Counted from the first letter of the stretch, positions 27,191-41,264 are shown. The stretch: 64,000 nucleotides of DNA from Chthonomonas calidirosea (GCA_945882415.1 CAMCWC010000013.1:1-64000), one strand, 5' to 3'. A program made the numbers and translations. Notes: generated from the sequence alone by a model not told the origin.

Positions 27191-29728
27191 CTAGTCTTGT
27201 TCGGTCACGTTCTGGTCGATCTTGAGCCCCTTCGCCGCTAGCCCTTTACCGTGCGCTCCTGCAAGGGGCGCGGGGTAGGGAATATTGCCCTTTGCCGCCG
27301 TCCAGAGTTGGCGGTTGAACTCGTTTTCGTCGACCGTGTCTGGTCGCTTTAGGTCCAACGTTCGAGACGTGGTTCGAGTTGGGTTCATCAGGTCAAGGGG
27401 GACTCGATTTGGCCGAACGTTGTACGCCTTTAGGTTCGCTTTTGCCTGGAAGCAGTCGGTCATCAGGTTTGCCTGAATCTCGAATCGGGTTGCTGGCTTC
27501 AGACCAAGCACGTGCCGCACGGTCTTCAAGACCGAACCTTGGTTGTAAAACTTCGACACCACCGCTCCTCGGCGGGTGTACGGGCTAACCACGAGGCAGA
27601 TGGAGCGGTGTCCATCGACATGGTCAAACCCGGCCTGCGGGTCGTCCTCGATGACGAAGATCACGGTGTTCTTCCAGAACTTCGACTTACTGACCGCATC
27701 CACGATTTGGCCGAGGGCGAGGTCGTTATCGGCCATGTGCGCGGTCGGAGCAGGGGCTCCCGCACCGGTTCCAGAGGTGTGGTCCTGGGGCAGGTAGACG
27801 AAGTTGAAGTTCGGCAGCTTGCCCGTTTTCTCGGCAGTTTTGAGGTCTTTTAGGAAGTAGCTCGCCCGAAGGACGTCGGGGATCTCCATGTTCCAGCCTG
27901 GGCATTCGGGATGGCTGTACTTCTTGAGCCGCTCGATTTCGATCTTGTGATTGAATTTGACCTTCGGTGACCCTGATTGGAAGTCTTTCAGGATGGCGGT
28001 GTGCTTTTCACCTTTGCTCGGGGCGGCGTAGTCGTACTCTCCGTAGTTGCGGAAGGTTAGGCCCTTATCCAGGACGGCGTCCCAAATGTGTCCAGTGGAT
28101 GAGATGGCCAGCGGGTCGTCACCGAACGGGTAGCTCCGGGTCCAACCGCCGAACGATCGCTCGAAGTAGGTTGTTGCGTTTCCTTCGGTGCTCCAGCTGT
28201 GGCCGTCTGCGCTCAGGACGCCGTTGCAATAGTAGTTGTCAAGAAGGACGAACTCTTTGGCGAGCGCGTGGTGGTTTGGCGTGATGTCCTCGCCGTAGAT
28301 GCAAAGGCTTGGATCGCCATCGGCACCCGGAATATCTCCAAAAACCTGGTCGTAGGTTCGGTTTTCTTTGAGGACGTAGATGACGTGTTTGAAGATGCTC
28401 GGCTCTCCGGCTCGCTCGGGAATCGGTTTAGCGGCGATGTTCTTACGAGGGGGTTGGATGGCAGCCAGAGTTTCTGGCTTTTGCATGTTTGCGGTGCGGG
28501 GAATGACGCTGAGAGTTCCGGTGAATTGATAGACGCCTCTTGATTTCGCATCGGTGGTAGACAACGGGCTTCCGAGCTTTTCGGTCGTTGCGATAGTGTC
28601 GAATTTGCCGTTGCGAAGGTCATTTCGACGACCACCGAGGCCCTTTGCACTGGCGACGACGAGATTGTTTTCAAACGCTCGGACGGCGGTGGGGTACCAG
28701 CCAGATCGGTAGGTTTCGACCGGTGCAAACTCACCGGCCGAAAGAACAACGACTTCGTTGCTGCCACCGCATGCAACGGCGACTTGGCCCGATGCGAGCA
28801 TGGTGAGCGAGGAAGGTGCAGCACCGACGCTCGATTTCCAAAGCGGAACCCATTTTCCGGAGCTCGCGTTTATGGCGATCAATTCATCGTCGTTTGCTAC
28901 GGCGACGTAGACTTGGCCATCCCGAACTTCAAGTTCGCAAGGCTGTCCGCCGACGAGCACGCTTTTTGTTGCTTTTCCGATGGCGATAGAGATTTGTGAA
29001 ACCGTTCCGCCGGTCGCAATCCCGCGCCGATCAACTGCGACGGGTGTGCCGGATGCGTTTGATTTAGGCTGTCCGGGTTGAGGTGTGCGGCCCCAACTGG
29101 ATACCCAGAGGGAATTCGATTCCAGATCGATCGCGAGTCCAAACGGCGCCGGAGCAACATCCATCATGCGGTCAACCTTGCCCGTTTCGAGGTTGATTTC
29201 GGCGACTTGGTTACTCCGGCTGAGGGCGGCAAAGAGCTTGCCGTCGTGGAGAAGCAGATCGCAAGGATAGGCCGCGCCGCCAACGGCGGGACGGGGCATG
29301 GTGAACGTCCGCGCGACTTTGGCTGGTAAGACAGCGACGTCGACTTCGATGACGTTGCTGCTTCCGTTGCTGTAGTAGAGCTTAGAGCCGTCAGCGGAAA
29401 GGGCAAGCCCGGTGTGCGAGGAAGCTCCGGACACGTTCAAGCGTTGAAGAATCTTGTTGCTGGCAACGTCGATGATGGTGAGGCCAGTCGATTCTTTCAC
29501 GTAGGCCGTCTTCCCATTTGTTGAAAGCACAACGTCAACCGGTCGGTCGGCGAAGACCGTGAGCTGGCCATCGGGCTTGATCCACTGTCCGGTATTGACA
29601 AGGATGCCTTTTCCGGCGTTGAGGTCGCCGACTTTGTTGTTTGCCTGAAACATAAAGGCGAGCCCAGTACCAAGGCCAACGATGGCAAGGGCTAGAACGC
29701 TGACGCGGCGATGAGGAGTCGACTGCAC
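27191..29728 (-). CDS. YVTN propeller fused to alkaline-phosphatase-like phosphoesterase
   Basis: The 845-residue protein has an N-terminal anchor or signal (VLALAIVGLGTGLAFMFQ), a YncE-like beta-propeller (about 45-400, with LALSADGSKLYYSNGSSN-type blades) and a phosphoesterase domain from about 440: HVIYVLKENRTYDQVFGDIPGADGD, LLDNYYCNGVLSADGHSW, QDHTSGTGAGAPAP and VIEDDPQAGFDHVDGHRS. These motifs match the acid phosphatase/phospholipase C-type alkaline phosphatase superfamily fused to propellers that is common in soil bacteria. It is probably surface exposed and releases phosphate from organic esters. Confidence 0.85.
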   Translation of the reverse strand: MQSTPHRRVSVLALAIVGLGTGLAFMFQANNKVGDLNAGKGILVNTGQWIKPDGQLTVFADRPVDVVLSTNGKTAYVKESTGLTIIDVASNKILQRLNVSGASSHTGLALSADGSKLYYSNGSSNVIEVDVAVLPAKVARTFTMPRPAVGGAAYPCDLLLHDGKLFAALSRSNQVAEINLETGKVDRMMDVAPAPFGLAIDLESNSLWVSSWGRTPQPGQPKSNASGTPVAVDRRGIATGGTVSQISIAIGKATKSVLVGGQPCELEVRDGQVYVAVANDDELIAINASSGKWVPLWKSSVGAAPSSLTMLASGQVAVACGGSNEVVVLSAGEFAPVETYRSGWYPTAVRAFENNLVVASAKGLGGRRNDLRNGKFDTIATTEKLGSPLSTTDAKSRGVYQFTGTLSVIPRTANMQKPETLAAIQPPRKNIAAKPIPERAGEPSIFKHVIYVLKENRTYDQVFGDIPGADGDPSLCIYGEDITPNHHALAKEFVLLDNYYCNGVLSADGHSWSTEGNATTYFERSFGGWTRSYPFGDDPLAISSTGHIWDAVLDKGLTFRNYGEYDYAAPSKGEKHTAILKDFQSGSPKVKFNHKIEIERLKKYSHPECPGWNMEIPDVLRASYFLKDLKTAEKTGKLPNFNFVYLPQDHTSGTGAGAPAPTAHMADNDLALGQIVDAVSKSKFWKNTVIFVIEDDPQAGFDHVDGHRSICLVVSPYTRRGAVVSKFYNQGSVLKTVRHVLGLKPATRFEIQANLMTDCFQAKANLKAYNVRPNRVPLDLMNPTRTTSRTLDLKRPDTVDENEFNRQLWTAAKGNIPYPAPLAGAHGKGLAAKGLKIDQNVTEQD

Positions 29729-29904: not shown

Positions 29905-31314
29905 ATGCTGCAACATACTAAACGAAGAATCCGTCTCAGGCGCTTCTGTCTTCTCTTCGTAACTGCTTGTGTTCTAGCTCCTTTATCTGCCGCGCAAGTT
30001 CCGCTTACCAAAATGCAGGCAGATGCTTTGTATCCTCAACGTTTAAGTTCAAACTGGATGAGGTTCGAGGTGCCACACAATTGGTCTGAATTTGTACCAT
30101 ATTTTTCAATATACGAAAATCCAGTAGGTGATTACTTCGCGGATATTAATGAACAATCGTTGATCCCAACGGGTTACGACTCATTTCCGGTTTATTACGT
30201 CGACCCAATTTCTGGGGCTGACTCGAAGGATGGCAGCCGACAAGATCGCGCATTTCGATCGATTGCAAAGGCGCTTTCGATGAGTGGAAATAAGAGGATT
30301 TTGTGTCGTCCTGCCGTTTACGATTACATCACCGGCTGGAAAGGATATTCGGCTTCTGGCAAAGTGATCGTGGAACCCTGGGATGAAACGGGTTCAGTCA
30401 TTTGTTCGGGTCACATTCCGGGTATTGCTTGGACGCCGCTAGGTGGCGGGGTCTACCGCGCTCGTTGTTCCACGTATCCGCACGAGGTGTTGGATGAAAT
30501 CTATAAGGATCAGTGGGGGAATGGAGTTCGGTACGTTCGGGAATCCGATTCTGATGACGTGGAAGAGGAGGAAGGAACCTTTGCCGTTTCCGGCAAGGAC
30601 ATTTTGGTTCACACACTGGACGGTCGCGCGCCAGACGCGAACATTTCGGTGTACACAAATCAACCAAACGGCAGATTCGATACAAACGGGCAGCTCTACG
30701 TGCGTAACTTCGAGTTTCGTGGCGGTTTTGTTCCGTTTCAGTGCCTAACGTCGGTTCCGGGACAGGTTGCAACGTTCATCGACTGCACATTCCGCTACTC
30801 GCTTACGGGGCAGGACGGCTACTCCATGGAAGGGCCTGGGCTGTCGATTGCTATTCGATGCAAGGCCACTGGCAATCATAGTGACGGCTTTGATTATCGA
30901 GACGGTCGCAATTTTATAGAGATAGACTGCAACGGAAGTGCTAACGGTTTCGGATCTAGTTACCTCGATAACGGCACCACCGCGCACTTCGGCTCGGTTG
31001 GGATCACGATTGGCGGATTATATTCGCAGAATAAAGGTCGAAACATCCACGATGTTTTTGACAGTAAGAGACTTTTGCTGGGTGCGACCGTTGGCGACTC
31101 ACGTGGAGTCGATGCCTCTAAAGCAGATATTTGCGCGGGAGCCAGTACGTCGGACAGCCCAGACCGGACGGAAATATGGGCGCTTGGTATCCGGTATTTG
31201 CACGGGTCTCCCATCTCCCGTTCTACTTCGTCACAAAGCAAAATTTGGTACCGCCGACACCTGTCGAGCGGAACCGACATTAGCGAACAACTAGGAACGA
31301 TCAGACCTATATGA
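29905..31314 (+). CDS. Secreted beta-helix protein 1 (tailspike-like)
   Basis: The open frame starts at 29779, but the ATG at 29905 fits the promoter and a signal peptide (LRRFCLLFVTACVLAPLSAAQ). The 469-residue product opens with LTKMQADALYPQ, then VYYVDPISGADSKDGSRQDRAFRSIAKAL, the pattern that begins right-handed beta-helix (pectate-lyase-like) domains, and RPAVYDYITGW and VIVEPWDETG. It continues with beta-helix rungs and DGFDYRDGRNF. It ends WYRRHLSSG...IRPI. The paralogue follows with an ATGA overlap. No polysaccharide-cleaving residues can be assigned. A glycan-binding or depolymerase role is inferred from fold and neighbours. Confidence 0.6.
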   Translation: MLQHTKRRIRLRRFCLLFVTACVLAPLSAAQVPLTKMQADALYPQRLSSNWMRFEVPHNWSEFVPYFSIYENPVGDYFADINEQSLIPTGYDSFPVYYVDPISGADSKDGSRQDRAFRSIAKALSMSGNKRILCRPAVYDYITGWKGYSASGKVIVEPWDETGSVICSGHIPGIAWTPLGGGVYRARCSTYPHEVLDEIYKDQWGNGVRYVRESDSDDVEEEEGTFAVSGKDILVHTLDGRAPDANISVYTNQPNGRFDTNGQLYVRNFEFRGGFVPFQCLTSVPGQVATFIDCTFRYSLTGQDGYSMEGPGLSIAIRCKATGNHSDGFDYRDGRNFIEIDCNGSANGFGSSYLDNGTTAHFGSVGITIGGLYSQNKGRNIHDVFDSKRLLLGATVGDSRGVDASKADICAGASTSDSPDRTEIWALGIRYLHGSPISRSTSSQSKIWYRRHLSSGTDISEQLGTIRPI

Positions 31315-32678
31315 AACGCCAAACTGCGCTCTCTCTCCTAGTTCCATTGGCATCGTCTGCGTGTGCGCAATACGATCCGAACACTGTTCTCACTAAGGCG
31401 ATTGCAGATCTTTTGTATGAACCAAAGGGGGTTTCCACTCGAACGACGTATTCCGCGCCTGCAAACTGGCCAGGGTCATGGGGGAATTTCACCGTATTCG
31501 AGACCGGCTCCGGCTCGTTTACGACGGATTTGAATCCGCTGAGCTTGCGTCCTCCCGACGCGCACACATACACCGTTTATTACGTTGACCCAATCACGGG
31601 CAGCGACCAGAACAGCGGTTCGACCAAGCAGTCGGCCCTGCGCAAGCTTTCCTTGGCTGTTTCCAAGCCTGGTAACAAGTGGATTTTGTGCCGACCGGGA
31701 GTTTTCGATTTTCGAACCTGTTGGGGAGGTGTCTCCTCGGTCGGGAATGTGGTCATCGAGCCTTGGGACGAATCCGGCTACGTGATCAGCAGTTCGCAAA
31801 TGGACAATCTGGCGTGGCAATCCGACTCCGGAATTTTCACTTCGGTGACCTCTACTTCCGCTGTCCAGGTCATTGACGAGCAGTCCAGCGATGTCTATGG
31901 TGTCGGTTCAAGTTTGATAAAAGTGACGAGCGTTGCTGCCGTTCGCTCAACACCTGGAAGCTTTTACAGCGAGTCGAAGCGGGTTTGGGTGAATCGCAGC
32001 AACGGTGCGGCTCCAGATGGGCAGCTACTGCTCTTCGCAAGTACCCAGAATGGCGCGGTGCAGAACGGGCGAGTGTGGCTGCGTAGGTGTGTTTTCTTAG
32101 GCGGTTCAAACACTTTCACCGCGAGTCTGCCCGCGGATTCAGAACTAACGTTCTCTGACTGCTGGTTCAAGTACGCAACTTCGGGCGATGGGCTTGCGGT
32201 TTCCGGGCCCGGAAAGGTGAATTCTCTGTTCTGTTGGTCGCTTGGGAACAGGGACGATGGCTTTGACTATCGGAGTGGACTTCGTTTTCTTGACGTTGCT
32301 AATGTTTCGGTTGCAAATGGTGTGCAAGGTGCGAAAGAGAGTTCTGGACTGGCGGCCTTCGATGCAACCAACGGCATCGTTGTGAACGGGATTTACCGCT
32401 CTAACTTTGGTCCGAATGTAACGGCTACCAGCAACAGTTCGTTATTGATCTTCGGTTCCACGATCGGTCAATCGCAAGCATCTGGTTCCTCGGCGGTTGA
32501 TTTACGAATTGGCCAAGGTGCTTCGGACGCGACTCAGGGATGGGCGCTGGGCATTAGCTACGATTCTGGAAGCACTTACTGTCGATCGGTTGCCCCAACA
32601 TCAACGATTTGGTATCGGAAGCACCGAGACCTGCGGCCCGATATCCTCGGCGCACAAAATCGAATTCGTCCCATCTAA
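31311..32678 (+). CDS. Secreted beta-helix protein 2, paralogue of the previous gene
   Basis: The 455-residue product has a signal peptide (LSLLVPLASSACAQ) and follows its paralogue in order: LTKAIADLLYEPKG, VYYVDPITGSDQNSGSTKQSALRKLSLAV, ILCRPGVFDF, VIEPWDESGYVI, DGFDYRSGLRFLDV and WALGISYDSG...WYRKHRD. Conserved blocks are spaced alike, with about a third of residues identical by eye. ATGA coupling to the upstream gene indicates coordinated production of both. LxxAxADxLY near the N-terminus resembles phage tail-fibre repeat units, and the YYVDP...G start resembles tailspike beta-helices. Function is inferred, not known. Confidence 0.6.
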   Translation: MKRQTALSLLVPLASSACAQYDPNTVLTKAIADLLYEPKGVSTRTTYSAPANWPGSWGNFTVFETGSGSFTTDLNPLSLRPPDAHTYTVYYVDPITGSDQNSGSTKQSALRKLSLAVSKPGNKWILCRPGVFDFRTCWGGVSSVGNVVIEPWDESGYVISSSQMDNLAWQSDSGIFTSVTSTSAVQVIDEQSSDVYGVGSSLIKVTSVAAVRSTPGSFYSESKRVWVNRSNGAAPDGQLLLFASTQNGAVQNGRVWLRRCVFLGGSNTFTASLPADSELTFSDCWFKYATSGDGLAVSGPGKVNSLFCWSLGNRDDGFDYRSGLRFLDVANVSVANGVQGAKESSGLAAFDATNGIVVNGIYRSNFGPNVTATSNSSLLIFGSTIGQSQASGSSAVDLRIGQGASDATQGWALGISYDSGSTYCRSVAPTSTIWYRKHRDLRPDILGAQNRIRPI

Positions 32679-32706
32679 ACGGGACAATTCAGCGATAAAC
32701 TGAGTT

Positions 32707-34086
32707 GTGCGCTGGTTCGCTGCTTTTTCTTTGATCGCCGTTAGTTCTGTTTGCGTTGCTGATGTCCAGTTGAATTCCATGTTCCAGTCGAACATGGTGA
32801 TTCCGGACAAGGCCCAATTGCCGATTTGGGGAACGGGAACTCCCGGCGAATCGGTTCTCGTGCTTGGTAGCTGGGGGGCAGTCGCCGGTGCAACCGTCGA
32901 TGAATCCGGTCGATGGAGAACAACCGTTATCACTCCGAGTGCCCAAACCGGCCTTGGTATTGAGGTCATTGCCTCAAACCGAATCCAACTGAGCAATGTT
33001 GCCTCCGGCGATGTTTGGGTTTGCATTGGCCAAAGCAACATGGAGCACACGCTCGCTCCCACTCCGGGGCTCCGATCCGTACTGAATGCTGACCAAGAGA
33101 TAGCGGATGCCAACTATCCAAACCTGCGATTGCTACGCCTCTCTCGGGTTCGACAGGCCGAGCCGGCGACGAGCGTAAGCGGAACTTGGGAGGCTTGCAC
33201 GAGCCTGACCGTGCCCAAGTTTTCGGCAGTCGGTTATTTCTTTGGCCGAGATCTCCATCTAGACCTTGCCAAGCCAATCGGAATGATTGCCGCGGTTAAG
33301 GGTGGAACGACAATTGAGGAATGGATGCCCAATTCCGCTTTTGCCGAATCGGGTTCGAGCGTATTGCCCACCACGACCTACTACAACGGCATGATTGCGC
33401 CGATGAAAGACTTTCCGGTTGACGGATTGATCATCTGGACCGGTGAAGGGAATGTTTCGAGACCGAACGAGTTCGGCCGCACCTGGAGAACCTGGCTGAC
33501 GACGATGCGACAGGCTTGGAACCTTCCCGCACTTCCGACTTACTTTGTTCAGCTACCTCCGTACAACTACTCCGGTGCAAGAAAGGGCGGTGCTCCGTTG
33601 TCGCGCGAAGGTCAGGCGGATTCACTCTCTTTGGCACGAACCGGCATGGTTGTCATTTCTGATCTCATCGACGATCTGAACGACATCCATCCGATTTACA
33701 AGCAGGCCGTTGCAGATCGCATCGTGCGTGCCGCTCTTGGCGAAACCTATAAGCGTAGCGGCTCAGTCGGGGCGAGCCCGCAGTACTTGAAGCACAATCG
33801 CGAGGGCCGAACCTTGCGAGTAATGTTTAAAAACGATCATGGTGGTTTGACTTCCCCCAACACAACGCTCACTTCTTTCGAGATCTCTGACGGTGGTGGT
33901 GTTTGGTATCCGGCAACGGCAATCATCGAGCGCGGAGCGGTGACGGTTTGGAATGATGCGGTTTTGAAGCCAGTGCATGTTCGATTTGGCTGGGCAGATG
34001 CTTACGTTGGAAATCTCTTCAACGGTGCTGGAAACCCAGCGGCTCCGTTTCGTTCGGACAAGCCTCTGCCACCTTTCGATCGTTAA
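32707..34086 (+). CDS. Sialate O-acetylesterase (SASA domain)
   Basis: A GTG start at 32707 gives 459 residues with a signal peptide (AAFSLIAVSSVCVA). The catalytic serine is in VCIGQSNMEH (Ser110), and the late DLNDIHPIYKQ supplies the Asp-x-x-His pair, giving the SGNH/SASA layout. The beta-sandwich before it (QLPIWGTGTPGESVLVLGSWG) is typical of sialate O-acetylesterases. The enzyme removes O-acetyl groups from sialic acids or other polysaccharides. Adjacent to two beta-helix proteins and an acyltransferase, it suggests reversible acetylation of a surface or environmental glycan. Confidence 0.85.
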   Translation: MRWFAAFSLIAVSSVCVADVQLNSMFQSNMVIPDKAQLPIWGTGTPGESVLVLGSWGAVAGATVDESGRWRTTVITPSAQTGLGIEVIASNRIQLSNVASGDVWVCIGQSNMEHTLAPTPGLRSVLNADQEIADANYPNLRLLRLSRVRQAEPATSVSGTWEACTSLTVPKFSAVGYFFGRDLHLDLAKPIGMIAAVKGGTTIEEWMPNSAFAESGSSVLPTTTYYNGMIAPMKDFPVDGLIIWTGEGNVSRPNEFGRTWRTWLTTMRQAWNLPALPTYFVQLPPYNYSGARKGGAPLSREGQADSLSLARTGMVVISDLIDDLNDIHPIYKQAVADRIVRAALGETYKRSGSVGASPQYLKHNREGRTLRVMFKNDHGGLTSPNTTLTSFEISDGGGVWYPATAIIERGAVTVWNDAVLKPVHVRFGWADAYVGNLFNGAGNPAAPFRSDKPLPPFDR

Positions 34087-34104
34087 GAATTTCGGGCGTT
34101 CGGT

Positions 34105-34659
34105 ATGATCCCTCCGATGGCAAAGTACGGATTTGGTCAGTTCAAAGCGGATGTCAAGGCGGACATCGCGGTTGACAGCCGGCGTCGACCGAAGCTGTGG
34201 TTTCTGACCATCTGGACCAGCGTCCGATTTCGGTTGCTATTGCTCTACCGCCTGGGAAGGTTCCTTTCTGGCGTCAAGGGCATGAAGCTTTTTCTGCCGT
34301 ACTTGAGAATGCGCCAATACCGACTGTGCGGCTGCGAGGTTTCGCCGCGGGCAATTATTGGTCGGGGCGTTTTGCTCCCGCACCCAACCGGGATCATCAT
34401 CGGTCAAGGCGTTACAATTGAGGACAACGTCACTATCCTGCAGAACGTAACTTTGGGTCACTTAGGTTCTGGCACAGAAGAGGATGCATACCCAGTGATC
34501 TGCGAAGGCGTCGCAATCTATGCCGGGGCAAAGATTATCGGGAACGTGCGCGTTGGAAAGGGCGCAAAGATTGGTGCCAACGCCGTGGTCTTGAAGGATG
34601 TCCCCGACGGCTACATCGCAGTCGGGGTACCGGCGCAAATGAAGGCGCCGAAGGCTTAG
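34105..34659 (+). CDS. Serine O-acetyltransferase-like hexapeptide acyltransferase
   Basis: The 184-residue protein has an N-terminal helical part (FLTIWTSVRFRLLLLYRLGRFL) and a left-handed beta-helix of hexapeptide repeats from about 85: HPTGIIIGQGVTIEDNVTILQNVTLGH, GVAIYAGAKIIGNVRVGKGAKIGANAVVLKDVPDGYIAVGVPAQ. The HPTGIIIG His is the catalytic base in the SAT/NodL family. The basic N-terminal half is more like polysaccharide-biosynthesis acyltransferases than CysE, so a glycan or sugar-nucleotide substrate is likely given its neighbours. ATG at 34117 is another start. Confidence 0.8.
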   Translation: MIPPMAKYGFGQFKADVKADIAVDSRRRPKLWFLTIWTSVRFRLLLLYRLGRFLSGVKGMKLFLPYLRMRQYRLCGCEVSPRAIIGRGVLLPHPTGIIIGQGVTIEDNVTILQNVTLGHLGSGTEEDAYPVICEGVAIYAGAKIIGNVRVGKGAKIGANAVVLKDVPDGYIAVGVPAQMKAPKA

Positions 34660-35903
34660 TCAGCCTTAACGGTCGCGCCGAGTCCGGCGAGCTTTTCGGC
34701 CACGTTCTCGTAACCGCGGGTGATCATCCACGCCTTGTGGATGGTCGTTTCGCCTTCGGCAGCTAGGGCGCAGAGCATCAATGCCGCGCCAGCGCGCAGG
34801 TCGATGGCGGTGACGTCAGCTCCGTGAATCTTGCTGCCGCCCATGATCTTTAGATAAGCGTCCTCAACCTTGCTCTGAACGCCCATCTTTGCGAATTCAT
34901 CGGCGTAGCCATATCGGCCATGGAAGCGGAGGTCGATGATTCGAGTTTCGCCGTTAGCGAAGGCGCCAAACGCGCCGAAGAGCGGCTGCATATCTGAATT
35001 GATGCCGGGGTAAGGACCCGTGCAGATGTCCACCGGGTGAGGTCGTCCGCCGCGGACAATCATGCTGTCGCCGTTCACAAAGAACTTCGCGCCGCTGTCT
35101 CGCAAGAAGATGAGAGGAACTTCGAGGTCTTCGAAGGGGAAGTTCCGGATTTCGACATCTCCGTCGGTGATGACCGCTCCAACGAGCCAAGTGAGTGCTT
35201 CGACGTTGTCGGCTAGGGAAGTCTCGGTCGTTCCTCGAAGTCGCTCCACGCCGTGTACGTCAACTCGCTCTTGGGAATGGACCTCGATCTGCGCGCCCAT
35301 TTTGTTGAGCATGCGGATGAGGCGGAGGCACTCGGGTCGGACGTGGGGATTGAAGATGCGCGTCGTGCCCTTGGCGAGCACGCTGGCAAGAATGGCGTTG
35401 TCGGTCGCACCCGTCGATCGGAAGGAAAGGTGGATATCGGTTCCGGTGAGGCCGTTCGGGGCTTCGGCGCAAATGATGTCGCCTTCAGTCCAGATTCGGG
35501 CGCCCATCTGCGTGAGGAGCTGTTCGTGCAGGTCCCACTTACGCTCACCGAGTTTGCAACCGCCAGGGTAGGGAACGCGGGCGTGGCCGAAGCGGGAGAC
35601 CATCGCGCCGAGCATCAGCAGCGTGTTGCGGATCGACTTTTCGGGTTCCCAGTCGAGCGTCGTATTGAGATCGCCGGGCTCGGTAACGGTGATGGCGTTG
35701 TTTTCCATCACGTATTCCTTGCCGACGGCTTTCAGCATATCGGCTTGAATCTGAATATCAAGCAGCCCGTTGGGGTGGTTCTCGATTCGAATCGGGTCAG
35801 AAGAAAGCAGCGTTGCGACCAGCAACTTGAGGGCACTGTTCTTTGCCCCGGAGACTTCAACTGTTCCAGACAAGCGCGTTGGGGAGATCTTTAGCGTTTC
35901 CAT
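34656..35903 (-). CDS. murA: UDP-N-acetylglucosamine 1-carboxyvinyltransferase
   Basis: MurA catalyses transfer of enolpyruvate from PEP to UDP-GlcNAc, the first committed step of peptidoglycan synthesis. I set the start at METLKISP (35903) because AGGTGAT lies 4 nt upstream; the frame extends three codons more. Residues show VSGAKNSALKLL (Lys21-Asn22), IRNTLLMLGAMVSRFGHARVPYPGGC with catalytic Cys116, RSTGATDNAILAS and the late GAALMLCALAAEG. The 415-residue length fits. The final codon overlaps the convergent acyltransferase by 4 bp. Confidence 0.94.
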   Translation of the reverse strand: METLKISPTRLSGTVEVSGAKNSALKLLVATLLSSDPIRIENHPNGLLDIQIQADMLKAVGKEYVMENNAITVTEPGDLNTTLDWEPEKSIRNTLLMLGAMVSRFGHARVPYPGGCKLGERKWDLHEQLLTQMGARIWTEGDIICAEAPNGLTGTDIHLSFRSTGATDNAILASVLAKGTTRIFNPHVRPECLRLIRMLNKMGAQIEVHSQERVDVHGVERLRGTTETSLADNVEALTWLVGAVITDGDVEIRNFPFEDLEVPLIFLRDSGAKFFVNGDSMIVRGGRPHPVDICTGPYPGINSDMQPLFGAFGAFANGETRIIDLRFHGRYGYADEFAKMGVQSKVEDAYLKIMGGSKIHGADVTAIDLRAGAALMLCALAAEGETTIHKAWMITRGYENVAEKLAGLGATVKAD

Positions 35904-36137
35904 TACCATCACCTCGGCTGGTTCGGGAGGCCAACCACGACGCGGTAAGTATGACAGCGGGCGCGCTCGAAAGGGTTTTAACTTAGGATGCGTGCTAATT
36001 TTTTACGTAAATCTGAGTTATCGAAAATTGCGACGTGAACGGCAACACCTGTAATATTTGCTAGTTCGAAACGTTAAAGTTAAGGAATTGTTAAGAGTGG
36101 TGTCAAGGGCAGAACACCGTTGACATACTAACTTCCG

Positions 36138-38615
36138 ATGATTGGAATTTTAGTTCTTGCAACGGTTGCTTCTGCAGCCGTTCCATCCATGGGCAGCACC
36201 GCCCTCTCGCAAGGCGCATTCATCGAGAACAAAGGTCAGTGGAACTCCACGGCTCGATTCTTGATGAAGTCGCCAGGCGCCAACCTGTGGGTCACCGATT
36301 CCGGTGCCGTTATTGACTACTACAAGCACACTTCGAAGAGCGTTCAGATCGACGAAGAGATCACCGGAAAGCAGATTTCGACGACGGGCGATGTTGTCCG
36401 TGTGAACTTTGTCGGCGCATCGAGCTCGGTCGTACCGGTCGGAGTCTCTAAGAAGAAGAGCCAGACCAACTTCATCGTTGACGGACAAGAATTCAACGGC
36501 GCGGCTTCGTTCAAAGAAGCGAAGCTGGTTAACGTTCTTCCTGGCGTTACCGCACGCTACTACCTAGATGGTGGCTCGCCACGATACGACGTTATCCTTG
36601 CTGCTGGCGCGAAGCCAGAATCGGTCAAGCTGAAGTACGAAGGCGCGAAGAACCTTCGCGTCGGCGCTGACGGTTCGCTTCAGTACGACATTTCTCTTGG
36701 CACGGTCCGAGAGCAGAACCTCTTCGTTTACCAGATGGTTAACGGAACGAAGAAGGAAGTTGCGGCTAAGTTCACCATCAACAACGGCCAGGTTGGCTTC
36801 AAGCTTGCAGGCTATGACGCCACCAAGCCAGTCGTCATCGACCCACAAATTTTCCTATCGGGAACGTTCCTTGGCGGAACGGGCCTTGACGAAGTGGGTG
36901 CCGTTTCGGTCTCCCCAAGCGGAGCCATCGTCGTTGCAGGCTTGGCCGCAGGCGCTGACTTCCCGACAAGCACCGGACCTTACAACAGCGACAGCACGGG
37001 CGCGGATTGGTTCATCTCGCACTTGAGATCGGACCTCACCGACATTGACGTCTTCAGCACCTACGTATCTGGTGGTGGCACGGAAGTTGGTTGGGCTGGT
37101 AGCACGCAGGGCATGAAGGTTCGCGTTTTGGATAACCAAGACATCGTTTTCGCAGCAAACGGAAACAGCACGGACTTGCCAGCAACGGGCGGCGTGCAGA
37201 CCGGAAACGGTGGCGGAAACGACGGTTATGTTCTTCGACTCCGCGCAAACGGCGGAACTCGAATGTTCTCAACCTACGTTGGCGGATCTGGCACGGACTG
37301 GATTTGGGACATGGATGTGAACCCAGCAAACGGTGAAGTAGCGCTTGCCATGCAAAACGGTTCGGCAGACTTCTCAAGTACGGTTGGAACTCGTGGCCCG
37401 CTGACCGCTGGCTCGGCGGCTGACACGACTAAGAGCGGAACCTCTGCAGATGCATTCGTTCTCGTTCTCAACAAGTCGCTTTCTGCGGTTAAGATGGGAA
37501 CCTTCTTCGGTGGAGCAAGCACCGACACCGGCAAGACGGTCAACTTTGGACGGGGCTATAACACGCTCGTTCTGGGTGGACAATCGCAATCGACGACTGA
37601 TCTTTCGTTTACCAACGGTACAGTCAGCGCGACGACGAACCGCGAACTGTTCTTGGCTCGATTCGCAATCAAGACGGCTGCGGTTCAGTTCAGCACCGTC
37701 TTCGGCGCCAGCGCCGGGAACGACACTTTCCGAGGCATGGAGATGGATATGGTCAATGACCGACCCTACATGACGGCCCTCGTTACGGGCACTGTGAACT
37801 CGAGCGGCTTCGGAACCACCATTCCGGTCAAGTTTGGTTTCGACAGCGCTCACGCAACCGGCAACGATGTCATCGTTGCAACGTTTAGCCAGGACCTGAA
37901 TCAGGCCGTCATGACGTATTACGGAGACTCTGGTAGCGACCAGCCAACCGATATCGCTCTTCAGTCAAATGGAACGGTCCAGGTTGTTGGAACCACGACC
38001 TCTGCGCTTCTACCGCTCAACGCAGCGGGCGGAACGAACATGACGGCGACTGCCGCCGCGACGAACAACACTCAGGGCTTCCACGCTCGATTCTCGAACG
38101 GTATGGGCCTCATCGGCGCCAGCCTGCTCGGAGGATCCAACGCGACGGACACCGGCACAGACACGCCATACGGCATTGCGCTCTTCGGCACATGGAACAA
38201 CGCGGTCGTCGTCGGTCAAACTGCTTCCTTCTCGATGCAGGTCTCGACTGCTGGCTTCCAGAACGCGAATCCAGATACCTCTGGCTTCGTCAACGTGCTT
38301 GGCTTCTACACCGACCCAACCGGCATTTCGTTCAGCAGCAACAGCGTTTCCGACACTCAGTCGAACTTCGCTGCGGTTGAACTCAATGCTCCGGTTCAGA
38401 ACGCACTCGGACAGAACGTTGTTCTGACTCTTTCGCCATCATCGGCCGCTCAGTTCTCGAACGGAACTGCAACGATCACCGTTAACATCCCGCAGGGAAG
38501 CCAACGAATCGCAGCTAAGATCTTTAGCAAGCAGGTCGTTTCACCAACCCTCGTCACGGTATCGGCTCTCTCGAGCGGTACTACCGTCTCGGGATCGTAC
38601 ACAATTAACCCGTAA
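36138..38615 (+). CDS. Secreted DUF7948/SBBP-repeat protein 1
   Basis: The 825-residue product begins with a short signal peptide (MIGILVLATVASAA). Residues about 25-240 match DUF7948 (GAFIENKGQWNSTARFLM, YYLDGGSPRYDVILAAGAKPES), then SBBP-like beta-propeller blades follow (for example YVGGSGTDWIWDMDVNPANGEV, FFGGASTDTG), with a C-terminal beta domain closing GTTVSGSYTINP. These are large extracellular proteins of unknown function. The paralogue at 38796 shares most of the N-terminus, and the copies are tandem. An independent terminator follows. Confidence 0.8.
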   Translation: MIGILVLATVASAAVPSMGSTALSQGAFIENKGQWNSTARFLMKSPGANLWVTDSGAVIDYYKHTSKSVQIDEEITGKQISTTGDVVRVNFVGASSSVVPVGVSKKKSQTNFIVDGQEFNGAASFKEAKLVNVLPGVTARYYLDGGSPRYDVILAAGAKPESVKLKYEGAKNLRVGADGSLQYDISLGTVREQNLFVYQMVNGTKKEVAAKFTINNGQVGFKLAGYDATKPVVIDPQIFLSGTFLGGTGLDEVGAVSVSPSGAIVVAGLAAGADFPTSTGPYNSDSTGADWFISHLRSDLTDIDVFSTYVSGGGTEVGWAGSTQGMKVRVLDNQDIVFAANGNSTDLPATGGVQTGNGGGNDGYVLRLRANGGTRMFSTYVGGSGTDWIWDMDVNPANGEVALAMQNGSADFSSTVGTRGPLTAGSAADTTKSGTSADAFVLVLNKSLSAVKMGTFFGGASTDTGKTVNFGRGYNTLVLGGQSQSTTDLSFTNGTVSATTNRELFLARFAIKTAAVQFSTVFGASAGNDTFRGMEMDMVNDRPYMTALVTGTVNSSGFGTTIPVKFGFDSAHATGNDVIVATFSQDLNQAVMTYYGDSGSDQPTDIALQSNGTVQVVGTTTSALLPLNAAGGTNMTATAAATNNTQGFHARFSNGMGLIGASLLGGSNATDTGTDTPYGIALFGTWNNAVVVGQTASFSMQVSTAGFQNANPDTSGFVNVLGFYTDPTGISFSSNSVSDTQSNFAAVELNAPVQNALGQNVVLTLSPSSAAQFSNGTATITVNIPQGSQRIAAKIFSKQVVSPTLVTVSALSSGTTVSGSYTINP

Positions 38616-38674: not shown

Positions 38675-38795
38675 TGTTGAGCAACTTGTCGATAGGTTAT
38701 AGCGTTTATAGGTAAATATGCCGGATTTTAAAACTCAGTTTCGTTGCGAGATAAAAGGTTATTATTTGCCTCAATAGATGGGGATACTAGGGCCG

Positions 38796-41264
38796 ATGAT
38801 TGGAATTTTAGTCCTTGCTACGGTTGCGTCGGCAGCCGCACCATCAATGGGCAGCGTAGCTGTCTCGCAAGGCGCATTCATCGAGAACCAGGGTCAGTGG
38901 AATTCCGCGGCAAAGTTCTTGATGAAGTCGCCAGGTGCCAACCTTTGGGTCACTGAATCCGGCGCCGTTATTGATTACTATAAGCACTCCACAAAGCTGG
39001 TGCCAGTTGCCGAAGATTTCAACGGAAAGCAGATTTCGACCAAGGGTGATGTTGTTCGCGTAAATTTCGTAGGCGCTTCGAAGTCGGTCGTTCCCCTCGG
39101 CGTTGCAAAGAAAACTTACCAGACCAACTTTATCGTTGACGGCAATGAGTTCAACGGAGTTGGTTCCTTTAACGAAGCCAAGCTGGTGAACGTGCTTCCT
39201 GGCGTAACCGCCCGATACTACGTCGATGGTGGCGCACCACGATACGACGTTATTCTCGCTGCTGGTGCGAAACCAGAATCGGTGAAGTTGAAGTATGAAG
39301 GCGCCAAGAACCTTCGTGTCGGCGCAGATGGCTCACTTCAGTACGACATTTCGCTTGGAACAGTTCGCGAGCAGAACCTCTTCGTTTACCAAATGGTTGA
39401 TGGCGTAAAGAAAGAAGTCGCGGCTAAGTTCACCGTGAATAACGGACAGGTTGGTTTCAAGCTTGCTGGTTATGATGCTTCAAAACCAGTGGTCATCGAC
39501 CCCCAGATTTTCCTCTACGGTACCTACCTCGGTGGTTCTGGCGCGGATGAAACAGGAGCCGTCGCAGTTTCGCCTAGTGGGGCTTTCGTTGTTGCTGGTT
39601 TAACCGCCGCAACGAACTTCCCGACAACCGTCGGCCCCTATAACAGCGACGGCACCGGACCTGACTGGTACATCTCGCACTTGAAATCGGACCTTTCGGG
39701 AATCGATAAGTTCAGCACCTACATTTCGGGCAGCGGAAACGAAATCGGCTGGGGGTCTACCCAGGGGATGAAAGTTCGCGTGCTCAATGACCAAGATGTT
39801 GTTCTTGCGGCAAACACTCCTAGCACTAACCTGCCCGCAACTTTAGGCGTTCAGACTGCCAATGCTGGCCAGACAGATGGATACGTACTTCGACTTCGTT
39901 CTAATGGAGGCACTAGGGCGTTCTCAACTTACGTAGGCGGTGACCAGGTTGACCTGATCTGGGACATGGATGTCAATCCAACCAATGGCGAAGTGGCACT
40001 CGCAATTCAGACCGGATCTGCGAACCTGTCGTCAGCAATCACGTCCCGTGGAGCACTTACGAAAGGCTCTGCTGCAGATACGAGCAAAGGTGGCTCGGGA
40101 GCCAGTAACGACGCATTTGTCCTCGTATTGGACAAGAAGCTTTCAGCGCCCAAGTTGGGATCGTTCTTAGGCGGCACTTCAACTGACGCAGGCAAGGCCG
40201 TCAAGTTTGGACGAGATTACAACACGGTTGTCCTTGGTGCACAAAGTCAATCCTCCGGGTTCTCAGTGACCACCGGAGCGATTAGTTCGAACAGAGACTT
40301 GCTGATCGCGCGATTTGCGATGCGGGATGCAGCAGTTCAGTTCAGCCTCGGGTTCGGTTCTAGTGCCAGTGATACTCTCCGAGCCCTGCAACTTGACCCA
40401 GTCACCGATCGCCCTTACATCGCGGCGCTCGTCGGCGGATCGATCAATACTGCGGGCTTCGGAACGACCATTCCCGTTCAGTACGGCTACGACAGCACGA
40501 GTAATGGTGGTAATGACGCCATCGTGGCCCTGCTCAGCCAAGATCTAAGTCAATTGAACATGACTTATTACGGCGGTACAGGCGACGATGCGCCGACAGA
40601 TATTGCACTGCAATCGAACGGTTCCGTGCATGCGATTGGCACAACGGAGTCGGCTGGCTTGCCGCTGAACTCGGCAGGCGGAACGAACATCACGGCGACC
40701 GCGGCCTCCACTTCTAACATTCAGGGCTTCCATGCCCGGTTCAGTAACGGCTTGAAACTTCAGGGTGCCAGCTTGCTGGGCGGAACGGTTGCTTCCGATA
40801 CGGGTGCGGAAACGCCATACGGTATAGCGCTGTTTGGGACCTGGAACAATGCCGTCATCGTTGGACAGACGGCATCCACCACGTTGCAGACATCCCCCTT
40901 GGCATTCCAGCCCGCCAACATCGACATCTCGGGCTTCATTCAAGTGCTAGCCTTCTCCACCGACCCAACGGCGGTTGTCTTCTCGAGCAACAGCCTGTTG
41001 GATACAGAAACGAACTTCGCGGAGGTTCGGCTGAACGCACCGGTGCAGAATGTGCTTGGTCAGAACGTCGTTTTGACGCTTACGCCAACCACGGCAGCGC
41101 GATTCTCGAACGGAACTTCCACGATCACGCTTAACGTGCCGCAGGGCAGGAAGCACATGTCGACGAAGATCTTCGGCAATGCAGTCACAACGCCAACTCT
41201 CGTAACCGTTACCGCGGTTTCGAGCGGTACGACCGTTTCTGGTTCGTATACGATCAACCCGTAA
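38796..41264 (+). CDS. Secreted DUF7948/SBBP-repeat protein 2
   Basis: I place the start at the ATG of MIGILVLATVASAA (38796), because it and the preceding ATACTA...CCG leader align with the first paralogue; an upstream in-frame ATG is at 38778. The 822-residue product keeps the same domain order: signal peptide, DUF7948, propeller blades (GGSGADETGAVAVSPSG), C-terminal beta domain ending SGTTVSGSYTINP. N-terminal blocks around GAKPESVKLKYEGAKNLRVG are identical between copies, while propeller blades diverge. Secreted surface proteins; function unknown. Confidence 0.8.
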   Translation: MIGILVLATVASAAAPSMGSVAVSQGAFIENQGQWNSAAKFLMKSPGANLWVTESGAVIDYYKHSTKLVPVAEDFNGKQISTKGDVVRVNFVGASKSVVPLGVAKKTYQTNFIVDGNEFNGVGSFNEAKLVNVLPGVTARYYVDGGAPRYDVILAAGAKPESVKLKYEGAKNLRVGADGSLQYDISLGTVREQNLFVYQMVDGVKKEVAAKFTVNNGQVGFKLAGYDASKPVVIDPQIFLYGTYLGGSGADETGAVAVSPSGAFVVAGLTAATNFPTTVGPYNSDGTGPDWYISHLKSDLSGIDKFSTYISGSGNEIGWGSTQGMKVRVLNDQDVVLAANTPSTNLPATLGVQTANAGQTDGYVLRLRSNGGTRAFSTYVGGDQVDLIWDMDVNPTNGEVALAIQTGSANLSSAITSRGALTKGSAADTSKGGSGASNDAFVLVLDKKLSAPKLGSFLGGTSTDAGKAVKFGRDYNTVVLGAQSQSSGFSVTTGAISSNRDLLIARFAMRDAAVQFSLGFGSSASDTLRALQLDPVTDRPYIAALVGGSINTAGFGTTIPVQYGYDSTSNGGNDAIVALLSQDLSQLNMTYYGGTGDDAPTDIALQSNGSVHAIGTTESAGLPLNSAGGTNITATAASTSNIQGFHARFSNGLKLQGASLLGGTVASDTGAETPYGIALFGTWNNAVIVGQTASTTLQTSPLAFQPANIDISGFIQVLAFSTDPTAVVFSSNSLLDTETNFAEVRLNAPVQNVLGQNVVLTLTPTTAARFSNGTSTITLNVPQGRKHMSTKIFGNAVTTPTLVTVTAVSSGTTVSGSYTINP

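Follow-up and report, generated by a model that had tools for sequence, protein, structure and literature searches.

A candidate surface-glycan editing cassette in Chthonomonas calidirosea that combines two tailspike-type beta-helix paralogues with an esterase and an acyltransferase

What might two exported beta-helix proteins, an esterase and an acyltransferase accomplish together? The question is raised by four adjacent plus-strand open reading frames at positions 29905 to 34659 of the window, as we call the whole 64,000-nucleotide stretch of Chthonomonas calidirosea DNA that was analyzed. An earlier note had proposed that the four products add and remove acetyl groups on a surface glycan and bind or cut it. 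Our best explanation, to which we give roughly even odds (about 0.5), is that the genes constitute a horizontally acquired cassette for editing exopolysaccharide (EPS) or another surface glycan, comparable to WceF of Pantoea. The first two genes, B1 and B2, encode relatives of a phage tailspike domain, wherein B1 keeps the conserved residues of its family and B2 has lost most of them. The genome of the window was compared with those of 61 relatives, including a sister species of the same genus (G014), and 291 genomes of the phylum were searched with a profile of the B1/B2 pair.

B1 and B2 resemble phage tail-fibre and tailspike domains

The products of B1 (29905 to 31314, plus strand, 469 amino acids) and B2 (31311 to 32678, plus strand, 455 amino acids) share 35% identity from end to end, and neither has a family in Pfam or NCBIfam. 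A search of PDB sequences with B1 alone likewise returned no match. Among PHROGs, which here include tail-fibre and 'hydrolase' families, B1 matches phrog_16653 (1e-41), phrog_32409 (8e-20) and phrog_30606, and B2 matches phrog_16653 (1e-28) and phrog_32409 (4e-24). With B1 as the query, tblastn matched 42 phage records, and with B2 it matched 39. Phages of Microcystis, Klebsiella, Staphylococcus, Serratia, Gordonia and Arthrobacter are among them, and tail fibre, hydrolase and pectin lyase are frequent annotations of the matching proteins. A scan of viral contigs with a phage-based alignment yielded 42 more loci; patterns built on the B1/B2 pair alone, which are specific to the pair, found none in these contigs. 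In a maximum-likelihood tree, B1 and B2 form one clade (support 100/100) whose duplication predates the split between the two species, and the nearest relative of this clade is a protein of Microcystis phage Mae-Yong1326-1 (97/93). Some members of the tree are long-branched, which makes its deeper nodes uncertain.

Both proteins are modeled by AlphaFold as right-handed beta-helices, with mean predicted local distance difference test (pLDDT) scores of 83.5 for B1, wherein residues 1 to 34 are disordered, and 85.4 for B2. When the B1 model was compared with viral models by Foldseek, phage proteins with template-modeling scores of 0.63 to 0.78 occupied the first seven ranks. The best match among solved structures is the GH141 enzyme BT_1002 (5mqp; Z score 28.0 over 351 residues, root-mean-square deviation 2.9), and others include the PL9 enzyme Pel9A (1ru4; Z 26.5), an alginate lyase (Z 26.4), a rhamnogalacturonan lyase (Z 25.2), Vibrio cholerae RbmB (Z 23.3) and the GH120 enzyme XylC (3vst; Z 22.4 over 339 residues, root-mean-square deviation 2.4). 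Because beta-helix matches are common, the similarity of the model to these enzymes would support glycan recognition or cutting rather than one specificity. When a profile of 20 family members was searched against PDB sequences, partial matches to XylC (3vst) and to the lyase 5olq were obtained at about 7e-7, mainly in the N-terminal part, and BT_1002 was not listed at E values up to 10.

Taken together, PHROGs, tblastn, Foldseek and the tree place B1 and B2 in the phage tail-fibre and tailspike domain family. The earlier note had recognized the fold and missed this membership. We class the two proteins as family homologues rather than as phage tail proteins, given that their block is flanked by genes for a phosphoesterase and MurA and that signal peptides replace the part of the phage proteins that attaches to the virion. 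Descent from a tail-fibre family could suggest that the block is a remnant of a prophage or of a phage-tail-like particle. This is hardly credible, as the window genes scanned include no recognized terminase, portal, tail or integrase gene, the PHROG matches found there are to housekeeping-type genes, and none of the four frames is broken in either species.

Directly after the signal peptide, each protein carries the motif LTKxxADxLY (30004 to 30033 in B1 and 31389 to 31418 in B2, both plus strand), and each has IRPI at its extreme C-terminus; both features are kept in the two paralogues of the sister species. Within the genus, LTKxxADxLY was otherwise found only as one match in a further congener (G017) that lies outside any open reading frame of 150 amino acids. 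The motif was considered as a phage trimerization tag, but a phage origin is unsupported, as neither the strict pattern in viral contigs nor a short tblastn search against phages gave a match. It is possibly an oligomerization or anchoring linker.

The conserved site is intact in B1 and degenerate in B2

Four residues, D327, N356, T359 and H361 in B1 numbering, are invariant across 20 diverse members of the family. Annotation has largely passed over this beta-helix family: any given Pfam family matched at most 1 of 20 members, and then weakly. In an alignment of 43 members, D327 is present in 41, N356 in 38, T359 in 37 and H361 in 39, and 35 members keep all four. The exceptions are B2 in both species, Totoro, Totoro2, Sarge (Q for N) and three loci with S for T (L127, L128 and L137). 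Many viral rows of this alignment were retrieved with a pattern that contains the motif, and hence a fairer set is the one that tblastn alone recovered, with 12 members from phages and plasmids. Nine of these keep all four residues, one has Q for N, and the remaining two are a tandem pair from phage Totoro without the set.

At these positions B1 reads DNTH and it also keeps D383, whereas B2 and its orthologue in the sister species read D-S-A-F and have lost D383 as well (N356S, T359A, H361F and D383A in B2). Across the aligned members, loss of the conserved set is rare but not unique to B2. In the B1 model, the conserved residues are located before or in strands 329 to 332, 358 to 360 and 381 to 383, a spacing that would gather them into one patch on neighboring coils.

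B2 is not decaying, because its nonsynonymous divergence (dN) between the two species is 0.16, compared with 0.32 for B1, which makes it the more conserved paralogue. A degenerate but constrained protein fits a binding or structural partner, and B2 is probably a pseudo-enzyme or a partner of this type, whereas B1 is a putative glycan depolymerase whose cutting activity is suggested by its family and fold. The earlier idea of a pair that binds or cuts had overlooked that the paralogues are not equivalent. We also observed that residues 315 to 319 of B2 read D-D-G-F-D, as in the DDGFD stretch of rhamnogalacturonan lyase 5olq that is included in the family profile match, and that the counterpart in B1 is S-D-G-F-D. 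B2 could have retained a metal site despite the loss of the other residues.

Two enzymes predicted to remove and add acetyl groups

The third gene (32707 to 34086, plus strand, GTG start) encodes a 459-amino acid SASA esterase, a predicted carbohydrate O-acetylesterase, that matches PF03629 with 52.8 bits against a cut-off of 24.8. Its alignment to the solved SASA carbohydrate esterases 9h4u, 9ega and 7kmm covers both lobes, and all three SGNH-type motifs are kept, namely GQSNM (S110), GEGN (246) and NDIHP (D326 and H328). The protein is shorter than these enzymes (about 640 amino acids) and is without their middle insertion. Because the catalytic motifs are kept and both lobes are aligned, the esterase should be active. 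SASA paralogues are common in the genus.

The fourth gene (34105 to 34659, plus strand) encodes an acyltransferase of 184 amino acids, for which an ATG at 34117 is a possible alternative start. It matches the Hexapep family with 48.2 bits (cut-off 27), and CysE and EpsC come closest among the other families, with scores under their curated cut-offs (125.9 versus 210.65 bits for CysE TIGR01172, and 129.3 versus 150 bits for EpsC); its WcaB score is also below the curated cut-off. With the CysE and EpsC serine acetyltransferases and the WcaB-like polysaccharide acetyltransferases it shares a left-handed helix and the catalytic histidine. In E. coli CysE we take His158 to be catalytic and Asp157, Arg192 and His193 to be serine-binding. 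Relative to that enzyme, His158 is kept, Asp143 is replaced by Glu, the N-terminal domain is absent, and the serine site is altered (D157P, R192A and H193Y). A second CysE-like frame of 282 amino acids, on another contig of the same genome (C26), scores better against CysE at 167 bits, also under the cut-off. In two congeners, related short acyltransferases lie beside genes for a flippase, a glycosyltransferase, NeuB, Wzz, Wzy and an exosortase, as in EPS or capsule clusters. The enzyme is most likely a sugar O-acetyltransferase and not a serine acetyltransferase, and the acyl group it transfers is presumably acetyl. The earlier call of a hexapeptide enzyme holds, but it had overlooked the likeness to CysE without the serine residues.

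The four genes form a compact block that recurs in a sister species

The stop codon of B1 and the start codon of B2 overlap as ATGA, and the gaps along the block are −4, 28 and 18 nucleotides. As judged by eye, without a predictor, Sec-type signal peptides are present at the N-termini of B1, B2 and the esterase and absent from the acyltransferase. Thus the inventory previously given, comprising four co-directional genes that begin with an ATGA-coupled pair of secreted beta-helix paralogues and continue with an exported esterase of the SASA type and a hexapeptide acyltransferase that stays in the cytoplasm, is borne out. Because the neighbors on both sides, a phosphoesterase/beta-propeller gene (27191 to 29728, minus strand) and murA (34656 to 35912, minus strand), run the opposite way, the block is a self-contained plus-strand unit. 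The adjoining murA gene hinted at a role in peptidoglycan, which we set aside, given that murA and the block converge and that the murA product is a general enzyme. Numerous paralogues of the other neighbor, whose product combines a beta-propeller with a phosphoesterase, occur in each congener, with 2 to 14 stretches per genome that match it.

The earlier note had suggested examining whether the neighborhood is conserved, and its reading would have fallen if no relative held the four genes together. It survives this test, because the same four genes occur together in the sister species, known from a metagenome-assembled genome from a pond, in the same order and with the same phosphoesterase and MurA flanks. 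Identities between the two species are 63% for B1, 77% for B2, 77% for the esterase and 95% for the acyltransferase, which is the most conserved of the four and evolves far more slowly than the others. Wherever synonymous divergence (dS) can be estimated, dN is well under it; dS is saturated for B1 and B2.

This conservation is narrow. The B1/B2 pair is present in these two genomes only among the relatives compared, and a profile of the pair gives high scores in only 2 of the 291 phylum genomes, the same two, with short matches (E values of 1e-5 to 1e-3), mostly to the first part of the helix domain, in four others. Orthologues of the esterase and the acyltransferase are likewise confined within the genus to the sister species, although distant SASA and hexapeptide proteins are common there.

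We considered whether the beta-helix pair, the esterase and the acyltransferase might be functionally unlinked neighbors brought together by chance. Occurrence in only two sister species, wherein conservation spans a short divergence and is weak evidence of linkage, and the much slower evolution of the acyltransferase are both compatible with this possibility. It is nevertheless quite unlikely, since the genes are tightly packed on one strand between opposite-strand flanks and their order is kept though synonymous sites are near saturation. With order and flanks kept and dN below dS, the recurrence of the four genes is beyond chance.

Because a stretch corresponding to 29.9 to 46.4 kilobases of the window is missing between otherwise collinear genes in one congener (G006), this part of the chromosome is variable. 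The missing stretch holds the cassette, murA, a tandem DUF7948 pair and three metabolic-type genes; the DUF7948 proteins, each of about 825 amino acids, are encoded at 36138 to 38615 and 38778 to 41264. In a further genome (G011), the phosphoesterase-HrcA pair is found with neither the block nor murA beside it. An exact empty site is not definable in either genome. The G+C fraction is 0.504 in B1 and 0.392 in the gap upstream of it, compared with 0.563 for the window. Patchy distribution, lower G+C content and a phage-type domain together suggest that the block was horizontally acquired.

The same features bear on a role in phage resistance, wherein acetylation and deacetylation would alter a receptor glycan and the secreted tailspike-like proteins would mask or destroy the receptor. 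Phages act on receptors with domains of the kind found in B1 and B2, the block is patchy and lower in G+C, and B2 could act as a blocker that does not cut. Even so, the four proteins match no PADLOC model, no other defense genes were recognized nearby, and we know of no phage of this host. We regard this explanation as very unlikely.

A proposed function in editing the cell's own polysaccharide

In the explanation we favor, the cytoplasmic CysE-like enzyme would O-acetylate the cell's own surface polysaccharide or EPS at the level of a sugar or repeat unit, and the exported SASA enzyme would take acetyl groups off outside the cytoplasm. B1, as the bacterial counterpart of a phage tailspike domain, would bind and probably cut the acetylated or deacetylated polymer. 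B2, the duplicated and catalytically degenerate paralogue, would bind the same polymer or pair with and support B1. In this scheme the cutting activity, the cell's own EPS as substrate, the expression of the block as one operon and the partnership of B1 and B2 are all inferred.

Support for the EPS context comes from a relative of B1 on the Sulfitobacter plasmid p5SUD7 (L096 and L169), a protein of 419 amino acids without a recognizable Pfam domain whose gene overlaps the end of a glycosyltransferase gene. Its neighbors encode a GumK-like glycosyltransferase, a flippase and an acyltransferase, and sulfotransferase and polysaccharide-export genes are nearby. In the genome of the window, contigs C12 and C17, both distinct from that of the block, carry Wzz-like genes, and C12 has a flippase-like gene too; an EPS pathway is therefore likely.

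Several observations weigh against this proposal. No glycosyltransferase, Wzx, Wza or export gene was recognized beside the block among the window genes scanned, and the recognized surrounding genes are mostly of housekeeping type (MurA, HrcA, DnaN, PPDK and SHMT). A weak point is that cytoplasmic acetylation and extracytoplasmic deacetylation would have to act on the same molecule. Moreover, Serratia jumbo phage Totoro encodes two adjacent family members (L094:2113-6235), both without D-N-T-H, and because this tandem pair lacks the conserved set, its residues may not be catalytic everywhere. The Totoro pair is also a possible phage parallel to B1 and B2.

A different polysaccharide could be the target. 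If the block served foraging, B1, B2 and the esterase would strip and cut the O-acetylated polysaccharide of neighboring organisms, such as the mucilage of algae, plants or cyanobacteria, and the acyltransferase would be a passenger or unrelated. The closest phage relative infects Microcystis, Armatimonadetes genomes are on record from a Microcystis culture (PMC5629041), the fold of B1 matches pectin- and xylan-active enzymes, and SASA enzymes are, as noted, abundant in the genus. Yet the block holds no transporter, outer-membrane receptor or sugar-catabolism gene, the conservation of the acyltransferase is unlike that of a passenger, and the Sulfitobacter relative is in an EPS synthesis cluster rather than a utilization locus. 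Foraging thus seems to us somewhat unlikely, and a glycan system acting on the cell's own polymer, supported by the block in the sister species and by the EPS context, is the best reading of the earlier proposal, albeit with narrow conservation and unequal paralogues.

A bolder version of the glycan-editing proposal holds that a captured tailspike gained a signal peptide and was duplicated into cooperating active and inactive subunits, for example in a mixed trimer, with acetyl groups as an on/off switch that gates cutting. We consider this version unlikely; if true, it would describe a two-subunit, acetylation-gated EPS depolymerase. More generally, the split into active and degenerate paralogues beside acetyl-editing partners leads to the hypothesis that O-acetylation gates depolymerization of a biofilm or surface glycan. 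The invariant residues of this mostly unannotated family offer direct targets for mutation.

Comparison with known systems

The phage members of phrog_16653 and phrog_32409, among them gp43 of Klebsiella phage Henu1 and proteins of Serratia phage Moabite, Staphylococcus phage Madawaska and Microcystis phage Mae-Yong1326-1, have a homologous beta-helix domain with the common motifs D-G-F-(N/D)-Y-(H/R), N-G-(S/T)-T-x-H and D-V. Unlike them, B1 and B2 are bacterial, carry a signal peptide in place of virion-attachment domains, are duplicated and lie away from virion genes. In some phages (L087 and L073), the family member is close upstream of the terminase gene and not among the tail genes. The GH141, GH120 and PL9 enzymes (BT_1002, XylC and Pel9A) are likenesses in structure, with partial matches in sequence as described above.

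The earlier note knew of no named system with this composition. In the literature searched, we found no description of exactly this set of genes, but there are precedents for tailspike-like EPS hydrolases in bacteria: WceF of Pantoea stewartii is a secreted EPS hydrolase with a tailspike-like trimeric beta-helix fold (PMC7949094). In addition, the RcGTA tailspike TspA degrades biofilm (PMC13420450). The present locus is likely an independent case in which a bacterium carries a tailspike domain of phage type in a secreted protein for glycan editing. Like WceF, B1 and B2 are bacterial, apparently secreted beta-helix proteins related to phage tailspikes. WceF is encoded inside an EPS synthesis cluster and has 736 amino acids, a head domain and a Tat signal peptide, whereas the cassette described here comprises two shorter paralogues, one of them degenerate, together with putative acetyl-editing enzymes, and has its EPS-type genes on other contigs.

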